Below, one piece after another: positions 10,861 through 25,090 of a stretch of DNA of 47,858 nucleotides. The stretch is from assembly GCA_020072655.1 (NCBI GenBank), contig JAIQGH010000026.1:1-47858 (forward strand), written 5' to 3'. The notes under the pieces are model-generated. The model was given only the letters and a program-made list of their open reading frames with translations, was not told the DNA's origin and made no database searches. A program made the position numbers and the translations under genes. This DNA is from Terriglobia bacterium. GTDB lineage: Bacteria > Acidobacteriota > Terriglobia > UBA7540. The first letter of the stretch is position 1; every line of letters begins with the position of its first letter.

Positions 10861-10938
10861 TCGGGATTCGGGACTCGCGACTCGGGGTTCGGGAAGGTCG
10901 CCGAGTCCCAATTCTCGACTCCCGATTCGCGAATCCCG
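10861..10938. repeat. Degenerate G-rich/C-rich 7-8-mer inverted array before obgE
   Basis: A run of GGGATTCG/GGACTCG/CGACTCGG units is followed by its inverse (CGAGTCCC, CTCGACTCCCGATTCG). Perfect pairs are CGGGATTCG at 10862-10870 with CGAATCCCG at 10930-10938, and GGGACTCG with CGAGTCCC at 10902-10909. The array ends exactly at the obgE ATG. Similar arrays lie at 5157-5200, 18515-18545 and inside tgt at 41364-41537. Confidence 0.7.
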
Positions 10939-12009
10939 ATGTTCATTGACGAGGCCAAAATCTACGTGGCGGGCGGCGGCGGCGGCAACGGCTGCGTAGC
11001 TTTCCGCCGCGAAAAGTCCGTGCCGCGGGGTGGCCCGAGTGGCGGCGACGGCGGACGCGGCGGCAGCATCTACCTCGAGAGCAGCGAGCACCTCAACACG
11101 TTGCTCAAGTTCCGTTACAACCGGGAATTCCACGCCCCACGCGGCGGGCACGGCGAAGGCTCGAACCGCCACGGCGAGGATGGCGAGGACCTTACCATCC
11201 AGGTCCCGGTGGGCACCGTGGTGTGGGATGAAGCCACGGGCGAGAAGTTCTGGGATTTCACTGCGCCGAGCCAGCGCTTCCTCGCGGCGCAAGGCGGGCG
11301 CGGGGGCCGAGGGAACGCCCGGTTCGCCACCTCGACCCATCAGGCGCCGCGCAAGTCCGAGCCAGGCGGCCCCGGCGAAGAAAAGAATTTGCGCCTGGAA
11401 TTGAAGCTCCTGGCGGATGTAGGATTGGTCGGCTTCCCGAACGTCGGGAAATCTACGTTGATTTCGCGGGTCAGTGCCGCGCGCCCGAAGATCGCCGACT
11501 ATCCCTTCACGACGCTTGAGCCCCATCTGGGCGTGGTGGCGCTCGATCCGGATCGCTCTTTCGTCATGGCGGATATTCCCGGGTTGATCGCGGGAGCGCA
11601 CGCGGGGCGCGGCCTGGGCACGCGTTTTTTGCGACACGTGGAGCGGACGCGGCTGCTTCTGCACTTGATCGATGTGGCGGAACACTCGGGCCGCGACCCT
11701 GTCGAGGATTACGAAACCATTCTGAAGGAGCTGGAGAGCTTCAGCCCGACGGTGGCCGCCAAGCCGATGCTGCTGGTGGCCTCGCGCATCGATGCCGCGG
11801 GTGAAGGCTACCGGCTCGTCACGCTGCGCGAGTTTTGCCAGGAGCAGCGCCGGCCGCTTTACGAAATCTCTTCGACGACCGGCGAAGGGCTCGACGAGCT
11901 GCTGCGGGCCGCCTGGGCGATGCTCGAGCAAATTCCCCGGCCGGCCCCCACCGCCGAGGAGGCCGGGCCGAGCCACGAGATTGGAACCACGCGCCTAAAC
12001 CAGCCATAG
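10939..12009 (+). CDS. obgE: GTPase ObgE/CgtA
   Basis: A 356-residue protein. The Gly-rich Obg domain covers residues 1-158 ([20 protein letters not shown]). The GTPase domain has G1 GFPNVGKST at 165-173, G2 TT at 191-192 and G3 DIPG at 212-215, with G5 SSTTGEG near 314-320. The G4 motif, normally NKxD, reads SRID at 282-285, an unusual but conservative change at the guanine-specificity loop. There is no C-terminal OCT domain. ObgE takes part in 50S assembly and stress signalling. The start at 10939 (MFIDEAK) is fixed by homology; the open frame upstream is repeat DNA. Confidence 0.95.
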
Positions 12010-14093: not shown

Positions 14094-14198
14094 GCCCTGC
14101 GGCCGATGGGCCGAAGAACCGATGGGCGACTAAATTACGGACCGTGTCATCGTGGTTTTCAATGACTCAATGACCCGATGACGCAATGAACAAATCCT
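14094..14198. repeat. Degenerate 8-mer repeat array before accD
   Basis: Iterated units of the ATGACTCA / ATGACCCG / ATGACGCA type occur at about 14160-14190, with GTCATCG and CGATGAC as inverted ends. Related CCGATGGGC units are near 14103-14130. It fills the gap between cobO and accD and holds no gene. The same unit consensus is found at 17322-17393, 17756-17807 and, in a variant form, 23447-23536. Confidence 0.65.
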
Positions 14199-16532: not shown

Positions 16533-17321
16533 ATGGGAACCCCTTCGGCCATTTCCGGCAAAAGAGGCCTCACGGCGGCAGACGTGAAAGATTTCTTCAG
16601 CTATCTGCGATCGCTGATCTTCACCAACAACCTCATCTATCTCTATACCGCCGTGATGGGGACGCTATCACTCGCTGGCTCGCTCTTCGACTCGCGCGGA
16701 CGGTGGCAGCATGGTTGCGCGCGCTTCTGGTCCTGGCTCATCCTGAAGACCAGTGGCATTCGGGTGAGCGTCGAGGGCCTGGAGCACGTCCGCCAACCGG
16801 CGGACACGCCGATGATTTTCTGCGTGAACCACCAGAGCGCTATGGATATCCCGGTGCTGCTCGTCCATTTCCCTTTCCAGTTCCGCTTCCTCGCCAAGCG
16901 CTCGCTTTTTCATTACCCTTTCTTGGGCTGGCATCTGCGCCGGTCGGGCCACATCGCCGTGGTGCGCGAACGCGCCAGTCAAGCCCGGCGGAGTCTCGAG
17001 GTGGCGGTCCGAAAAATCCGCGAGGGTTATCCCGTCGTGGTGTTCCCCGAGGGCGGGCGCAGTCGCACCGGAGAAATCCTGCCCTTCAAGGCCGGCGCGT
17101 TCCGGCTGGCGGTTCTCTCCGGCGTCCCTGTCACGCCCGTCACGTTGAACGGAACGCGTGCGGTGTTGAAGCCGGACACGCTTCATGTCCGGCCGGGCCG
17201 CGTGGAGATGATCGTGCACCCCGCCATCCCTACGGCGGGTCTCAAGGCGACCGACGTGGACGCCCTTGTGGAGCGGGTGAGAAAACAGATTCTCGCGCGG
17301 TTCAAGCGCCCTGCGGGCTGA
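16533..17321 (+). CDS. plsC: 1-acyl-sn-glycerol-3-phosphate acyltransferase
   Basis: A 262-residue PlsC-like acyltransferase that makes phosphatidic acid at the inner membrane. The catalytic NHQSAMD (HX4D) is near residues 98-104 and block III FPEGGRSRTG follows. An N-terminal hydrophobic segment (NNLIYLYTAVMGTLSLAGSL) anchors it. It is probably co-transcribed with folC (7-base gap). An octamer repeat cassette begins at the base after its stop codon. Confidence 0.9.
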   Translation: MGTPSAISGKRGLTAADVKDFFSYLRSLIFTNNLIYLYTAVMGTLSLAGSLFDSRGRWQHGCARFWSWLILKTSGIRVSVEGLEHVRQPADTPMIFCVNHQSAMDIPVLLVHFPFQFRFLAKRSLFHYPFLGWHLRRSGHIAVVRERASQARRSLEVAVRKIREGYPVVVFPEGGRSRTGEILPFKAGAFRLAVLSGVPVTPVTLNGTRAVLKPDTLHVRPGRVEMIVHPAIPTAGLKATDVDALVERVRKQILARFKRPAG

Positions 17322-17807
17322 GTGAGTCATCGGGCGATTGAGCCATCGGGCCATTGAAGAACAGATCGGCCAGGATTCGGTGGAGCAAACTAAATGAGTA
17401 CGCAGCCGGAAGAGCTTCGAGCCAGGACAAAGCAGTTTGCCTTAAGGATTGTTCGGCTGTTCAAATCGCTTCCGAGATCTAGTGAAGCGTTCATTCTCGG
17501 CAAGCAACTGCTCCGCTCAGGGACAGCCGTAGCTGCGAATTACCGAGCTGTCTGCCGGGCAAGATCGAAACCTGAGTTCGTCGCGCGCATGGGCGTAGTC
17601 GTCGAAGAAGCCGACGAGACCGTTTTCTGGATCGAGATGTTGGGGGACGCCGGGGTCATGCCGCGGTCTCGCTTAGAAAGCCTTCTGGCTGAGGCGAACG
17701 AGTTGTTGGCGATCTTCGCCGCTTCGCACCGCACGGCCAGGGCCAGATAGGGACAGCCAATGGCCCGATGACTCAATGGCTCAATGACTCAATCGCTCAA
17801 TAAAGCT
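17322..17807. mobile_element. IVS-like cassette: inverted octamer arrays around a four-helix-bundle gene
   Basis: Left array (17322-17360) units read AGTCATCGGGCGATTGAGCC..., and right array (17756-17807) units read ATGGCCCGATGACTCA... in the opposite sense. The perfect pair is CATCGGGCCATTG at 17344-17356 with CAATGGCCCGATG at 17758-17770; the flanking CTCAAT/ATTGAG units also pair. The enclosed DNA is essentially one gene (17394-17750). Intervening sequences in 23S rRNA have this same plan: a terminal stem with a four-helix-bundle reading frame in the loop. Here the host is an intergenic site between plsC and an SDR gene. Mobility is inferred. Confidence 0.55.
17394..17750 (+). CDS. Four-helix-bundle protein of the 23S rRNA intervening-sequence (S23) family
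   Basis: A 118-residue all-helical protein. Signatures include FALRIVRLFKSLPRSSEAFI, LGKQLLRSGTAVAANYRAV, CRARSKPEFVARMGVVVEEA and DETVFWIEMLGDAG, which define the family found in 23S rRNA intervening sequences and related to the Avd accessory protein of diversity-generating retroelements. No reverse transcriptase or template repeat is near, so a retroelement role is unlikely. The start at 17394 follows GGTGGAGC. It lies alone between inverted octamer arrays. Its biochemical function is unknown; nucleic acid binding is suspected for the family. Confidence 0.88.
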   Translation: MSTQPEELRARTKQFALRIVRLFKSLPRSSEAFILGKQLLRSGTAVAANYRAVCRARSKPEFVARMGVVVEEADETVFWIEMLGDAGVMPRSRLESLLAEANELLAIFAASHRTARAR

Positions 17808-23048: not shown

Positions 23049-23452
23049 GTCCGGGAGAGCGTCTCACGCTGGGTCTGGCCGCGGTGGCCACGGCGACAGG
23101 ACTTGCCGCCTGGCTGATGGCGCGTTTCCGGCGCCGGCATGCGAAGAGCCCGGAGGAGATCGAGCGTCAGCGGCGCCTGGACGTCCACAACTGCGGCAGG
23201 ATCGCGCCGGGCCACATCGTGGACTTCCTCGAATCCAGCGGCGCCGATAACAACGGCCGACTGCTTCTCTACAAATACGAAGTCGGCGGCGTCACTTACG
23301 AAGCCGCGCAGGACATCTCGGCCCTGGCGAGCCTCGCCGCCACCGCCCCAGGCCTCGCCGGGCAAACCGCGAGCGTCAAGTACGATCCGAAACGTCCCAC
23401 CAATTCCATCATCGCGTGCGAGGAATGGTGCGGAATCAGGACGATCGGGTGA
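23045..23452 (+). CDS. Small membrane-anchored protein, DUF3592-like
   Basis: A 135-residue protein with a GTG start overlapping the tal stop. One N-terminal membrane helix ([20 protein letters not shown]) is followed by a basic stretch (RFRRRHAK) and a small beta domain. The pattern [20 protein letters not shown], then [13 protein letters not shown], resembles DUF3592-type domains. Function unknown. It is probably co-transcribed with tal. Confidence 0.6.
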
Positions 23453-23536
23453 TTGAGTGATTGTGTGATTGAGCGAATGAAGAAATGAATCGGTTGGGGA
23501 AATCGCTCAATCACTCAATCGCTCAATCACACAATT
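23447..23536. repeat. Gene-less octamer hairpin element before pccB
   Basis: ATTGTGTGATTGAGCGA at 23460-23476 is perfectly inverted at 23519-23535 (TCGCTCAATCACACAAT), with further GATTGAGT/ACTCAATC units around it. The 42-base centre holds no reading frame. The unit (GATTGAGN) is the complement type of the CTCAAT units at 17322-17807, so this looks like an empty version of the gene-carrying cassette. It ends 4 bases before the pccB ATG. Confidence 0.7.
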
Positions 23537-23539
23537 CCT

Positions 23540-25090
<1,551 letters not shown>

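Follow-up and report, generated by a model that had tools for sequence, protein, structure and literature searches.

The intergenic region between plsC and an SDR gene in a Terriglobia bacterium (contig JAIQGH010000026.1) raises the question of why a small gene of the S23/IVP family is enclosed there by inverted arrays of short repeats, and whether it belongs to the same type of element as the intervening sequences (IVS) of 23S rRNA. The parts of the element are compiled in Table 1, together with repeat structures without an S23 gene found elsewhere in the window, i.e., the whole stretch of 47,858 nt that was analyzed. An earlier note, made from the sequence alone, had described an S23/IVP gene within inverted octamer arrays that include perfect arms of 13 bases, and both parts of this description are confirmed. 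The two arms of 37 nt each are 86% complementary, have a period of 8, and contain the perfect 13-mers CATCGGGCCATTG (17344-17356) and CAATGGCCCGATG (17758-17770), as verified by direct reading of the sequence. Their arm score of 24.5 exceeds the 99th percentile of 880 control ORFs (20.6), and RNA folding, which the note had recommended, yielded a minimum-free-energy structure in which the arms are paired (z=-4.05 versus shuffled sequences). The octamers of the right arm end a few bases 5' of the SDR start codon (17809). S23 is the sole gene of the cassette, which is bordered by plsC on one side and the SDR gene on the other side and contains neither a transposase nor a reverse transcriptase. 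An Rfam search of the window for rRNA gave no match, and the element is located outside of any 23S rRNA gene.

Table 1. Repeat arrays, hairpins and the S23 gene in the window.
Feature	Position	Strand	Remarks
Left arm, inverted octamer array	17320-17356	+	Units TGAGTCAT/CGGGCGAT/TGAGCCAT/CGGGCCAT...; first bases within plsC stop codon
S23/IVP four-helix-bundle gene, 118 aa	17394-17750	+	PF05635, TIGR02436; structure model
Right arm, inverted complement of left arm	17758-17794	+	Octamers run on to ~17801
Gene-less octamer hairpin, type of the 17320-17794 element	23449-23530	+	z=-7.9; just 5' of carboxyltransferase gene (ORF 23540-25090)
Mostly one-sided octamer array	14160-14189 (about)	+	Unit CAATGACTCAATGACCCGATGACGCAATGA; weak upstream hairpin partner; directly before ORF at 14199
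Gene-less hairpin, 7-nt units	10861-10939	+	Unit GGGATTCGGGACTCGCGACTCG; near start of Obg-like GTPase ORF

The encoded protein exceeds the curated cut-offs of both family profiles, PF05635 (E=1.3e-14, 54.7 bits, cut-off 33.8) and TIGR02436 (E=9.4e-23, 80.5 bits, cut-off 24), and its predicted structure consists of four helices (mean pLDDT 96); profiles and four-helix-bundle fold together place it among the S23/IVP proteins. The nearest solved structures in a comparison with VIA-align are 2RLD (Z 18.0) and 2GSC (Z 15.2), the latter being a homopentamer (PMC4990558). They are followed by the accessory protein Avd of diversity-generating retroelement (DGR) complexes with Z values of 13.1-13.7, which are near the level at which helical bundles alone may match; a likeness or homology of S23 and Avd has been noted before (PMC10053308). 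The S23 protein is under strong purifying selection, with a median dN/dS of 0.085 in 14 unsaturated gene pairs. The S23 gene is oriented like the gene 5' of it in 77 of about 90 cases, and like both of its neighbors in 56. The co-directionality with the upstream gene is as expected if S23 relies on read-through. Decaying S23 genes were also observed (L349, L156, and L144), including a frameshift (genome G431), a truncation (G010), and a partial duplication of the tail (the sucC-sucD copy of G000). A phage search with one S23 protein returned a single weak match (MT835815.1, 4690-4944, 32% identity), which could be an Avd-like protein.

The enclosure by repeats is not a peculiarity of the plsC-SDR site. 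The genome contains 17 S23 genes, and nearly all of them lie between inverted arrays of short units, each with a unit of its own. When the genomes of relatives were added, 98 S23 genes could be measured, with mismatched flanks as the null for the arm score and the 880 ORFs as controls. The 95th percentile of mismatched flanks was surpassed by 94% of the S23 genes and the 99th percentile by 60%, versus 1.25% of the control ORFs (n=880) for the latter. The unit length is 7 nt in 83 of 93 cases and 8 nt in only seven. A second set, covering many phyla, was obtained by scanning genome contigs with one S23 protein and is biased towards the subfamily of this query; it comprises 80 loci, 78 of them usable. 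Because shared units inflate the mismatched-flank null in this set, local control windows were used instead, and 66 of the 78 loci exceeded their 95th and 63 their 99th percentile. Of the 68 arms that are clear, 65 have a period of 7. The left arm is richer in G than in C in 65 cases and richer in C in two. Therefore, the octamers of the window are the exception and 7-nt units are the rule. The number of units per arm peaks at four to five according to a rough estimate, and while the array length is variable, the two arms of one element closely match each other. A few S23 genes have no recognizable arms; at one of them (L018), which is devoid of clear inverted arms, a direct repeat array (GGATTCAAGATGACAAATTCC...) is present 5' of the gene. 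The earlier note had reasoned that its view would fall if homologous genes were devoid of the arrays; in both sets the arrays flank nearly all of them. No rRNA match was found in the fetched flanks of the 80 multi-phylum loci. The association with rRNA from which the family name derives is thus atypical in this sample.

Comparison of the same sites in different genomes revealed versions with and without the gene as well as empty ones, all of which the earlier note had proposed to look for. At the plsC-SDR site, the cassette of the window is replaced by gene-less octamer hairpins in two relatives (G001, G008) and by a short bare spacer in a third (G017). At the sucC-sucD site, several genera have an S23 cassette, others have a hairpin without the gene, and still others have a short bare spacer; one genus includes both a genome with the cassette and one with a bare spacer. 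A single clade of four of the sucC-sucD copies is weakly rejected (p-AU 0.03) and a clade of three is not, and the copies of three genomes may represent one old, inherited insertion. The units at the hisH-hisF site differ between genomes, which suggests separate events. In a gammaproteobacterial genus, the accB-accC spacer is only 13-14 nt long in four genomes and contains a cassette of 470 or 483 nt with GGGAATC arms in two, and a stretch of AccC is identical in the bare genome G435 and the filled genome G431. This pattern of presence and absence fits gain and loss alike, and no clear target-site duplication was seen when bare and filled accB-accC sites were compared. The variation at sucC-sucD and accB-accC is at odds with a gene and arrays that are fixed at one locus across distant relatives, which the note had named as a second possible objection. 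Its inference that an element of the 23S IVS type can insert between protein-coding genes, perhaps as a mobile element at the RNA or DNA level, is largely supported as far as the anatomy and the gene-less and bare versions of the same sites go.

Gene-less arrays are also present at other sites of the genomes. The note had named two candidates in the window, of which the one at 23447-23536 is a strong hairpin, and that at 14094-14198 is only half convincing, as its octamer array is clear on one side only and pairs poorly with the left side (z=-1.9). The unit of the additional hairpin near the GTPase ORF recurs in the flanks of another S23 gene of this genome (L011). In the gammaproteobacterial genus, sites with GGGAATC pairs number 29 in G431, 23 in G435, 18 in G438, and four in G436, and four other genomes have none. 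Among these genomes, an S23 gene is present only in G431, where it is broken, and in G438. No S23 gene was found in G435 with its 23 sites, and therefore arrays can persist in the absence of the gene. Several of the gene-less hairpins share a common inner boundary with a gene-bearing copy, GGGAATCG-TNNNAGC, and judged from this boundary their origin as internal deletion derivatives would fit.

The repeat unit tracks the S23 subfamily, a coupling that was not visible to the author of the earlier note. Protein similarity and unit similarity are correlated (Mantel r=0.40; 1000 permutations with sd 0.033 and maximum 0.088), and the correlation vanishes when one unit of each pair is reverse-complemented (r=-0.04). 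After removal of 107 pairs with homologous flanks it is retained with r=0.354 (2000 permutations, maximum 0.115). Synonymous differences between close pairs amount to 0.45-0.89 per site (pS), mostly near saturation at about 0.65-0.89, and recent common descent alone is therefore no explanation for the likeness of the units. The shared ancestry of arms and gene accounts for part of the coupling, but freely drifting arms should have lost their likeness by then. As a spot check, S23 proteins of cyanobacterial plasmids were looked up by protein alone, and their nearest counterparts in the set have similar units, e.g., of the AGAAGTC type of Trichormus. A nearest-protein test of the units across the sets gave an observed value of 0.333 versus a label-permuted mean of 0.195 (sd 0.045, maximum 0.395); its outcome is no more than moderate, since a single protein is the nearest one for the majority of rows. 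Among the open-access papers in PMC, a description of this coupling was not found.

Several explanations can be considered for these observations. Intergenic regions often contain short inverted repeats, and terminators, MITE-like debris, or chance repeats might simply happen to enclose a gene; the weakness of the gene-less copy at 14094-14198 would fit this view. However, such arms are rare at control ORFs and in local control windows, and this explanation is very improbable. A more serious alternative is passive hitch-hiking, i.e., arms and gene descend as a block, and slippage or template switching keeps the arms alike without any recognition by the protein. Tandem inverted repeats readily undergo slippage, array lengths do vary while the arms within one element are closely matched, and part of the coupling must indeed be due to common descent. 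But the likeness of the units holds at near-saturated synonymous sites and with unrelated flanks, it is also seen between Cyanobacteria and the group of the window, and the nearly universal period of 7 nt would be left in need of a cause. Passive hitch-hiking as the whole explanation therefore seems rather unlikely.

The main rival is a domesticated regulator, slightly more credible than hitch-hiking and still improbable. S23 would then be a repeat-binding post-transcriptional regulator similar to the TRAP ring, and the arrays, whether or not they enclose the gene, its control sites at start and stop codons instead of components of a mobile cassette. The adjacency of the arrays to stop and start codons would fit, as would gene-less hairpins beside other genes with units that belong to S23 subfamilies present in that genome, the predominant co-orientation of S23 with the upstream gene, and the strong purifying selection. 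On the other hand, among close relatives a given intergenic site can be bare, contain a hairpin without the gene, or harbor the gene as well, the different units at hisH-hisF are in better agreement with turnover than with a conserved control site, and the sites adjoin unrelated operons without a common theme. Taken together, the elements are probably widespread insertable cassettes with an S23 gene between inverted arrays of its subfamily's own unit, in which the protein would recognize the repeat and of which the 23S IVS look like a special case.

A mechanism for such insertable cassettes can be proposed from the homopentameric relatives and from the fold kinship with Avd, which binds RNA and reverse transcriptase. 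An S23 ring would bind the repeat of its own arms. Our guess is that each subunit of the ring would contact one unit on a single strand of RNA or of hairpin-exposed DNA, because 2GSC is a homopentamer, arms have roughly four to five units, and TRAP is a ring-forming repeat-binding protein. A cassette within an operon might be tolerated if its stem were excised at the RNA level, in the way that RNase III removes 23S IVS, so that the cistrons on either side remained usable. The ring could promote the spread of its cassette by tagging the arms as substrates for other enzymes that copy or insert them, gene-less hairpins would be derivatives of gene-bearing cassettes, and 23S IVS would be cassettes that landed in an rRNA gene.

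The cassettes resemble several known systems. Avd (4DWL, 8UB7) has the same four-helix-bundle fold, but the sequence identity is only about 12%, and neither a reverse transcriptase nor a template or variable repeat was seen in the cassette. In REPIN/RAYT systems a gene is flanked by its own hairpin repeats, of which many gene-less copies exist elsewhere. The outline of a repeat-flanked gene with gene-less copies is shared, but S23 is not a Y1 (HUH) transposase, and the arms consist of tandem heptamer arrays. With the 23S rRNA IVS of Leptospira and Coxiella, the element has in common the stem of inverted repeats and the S23 gene in the loop. The IVS of Coxiella has tandem heptamers (GACAGAT) in the stem, at the start of S23, and is cut by RNase III, and the S23 protein is seemingly not made (PMC4990558). 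In contrast to the location within the 23S rRNA gene, the present element lies between protein-coding genes, and it differs further by many copies per genome, octamer arms, and a unit that follows the protein subfamily. Convergent inverted pairs of the heptamer GGGAATC have been described between genes of Xanthomonas and treated as G-quadruplex repeats, with S23 unmentioned (PMC4692102); going by that description, they are like the GGGAATC units that surround an S23 gene and form gene-less hairpins in the gammaproteobacterial genus.

S23 genes with repeat arms were also seen in cas operons, i.e., between cas6 and cas4 and between cas10 and cmr3, on plasmid pANA02 of Anabaena sp. 90 (L345) and a plasmid of Picosynechococcus sp. 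PCC 7003 (L347). S23 genes were counted as part of cas loci in an earlier survey (PMC3936711) and are listed in another publication (PMC10910872); this CRISPR link may reflect mere insertion. The TAACTGA repeats of Beggiatoaceae (PMC4679880) are the reverse complement of TCAGTTA, a unit of one S23 subfamily (L031, L066), and by this match are possibly one-armed relics.

A wider claim is plausible, although we would not yet call it probable, namely that the cassettes are mobile throughout bacteria, each with an S23 ring that reads a subfamily-specific word of 7 nt, sometimes 8 nt, and that IVS, many unexplained heptamer repeats, and the S23 genes of cas operons are all instances of them. This would join three loose ends, i.e., 23S IVS, the origin of which is open (PMC4990558), the unexplained over-representation of heptamer repeats in bacteria (PMC4692102), and the occurrence of S23 genes within cas operons (PMC3936711). 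The coupling predicts that each S23 protein binds the heptamer of its own subfamily but none of those of the others. If this is true, the S23 proteins would be a natural set of rings that bind repeats and can readily be compared, and a function would have been gained for a family that is present 17 times in a single genome.
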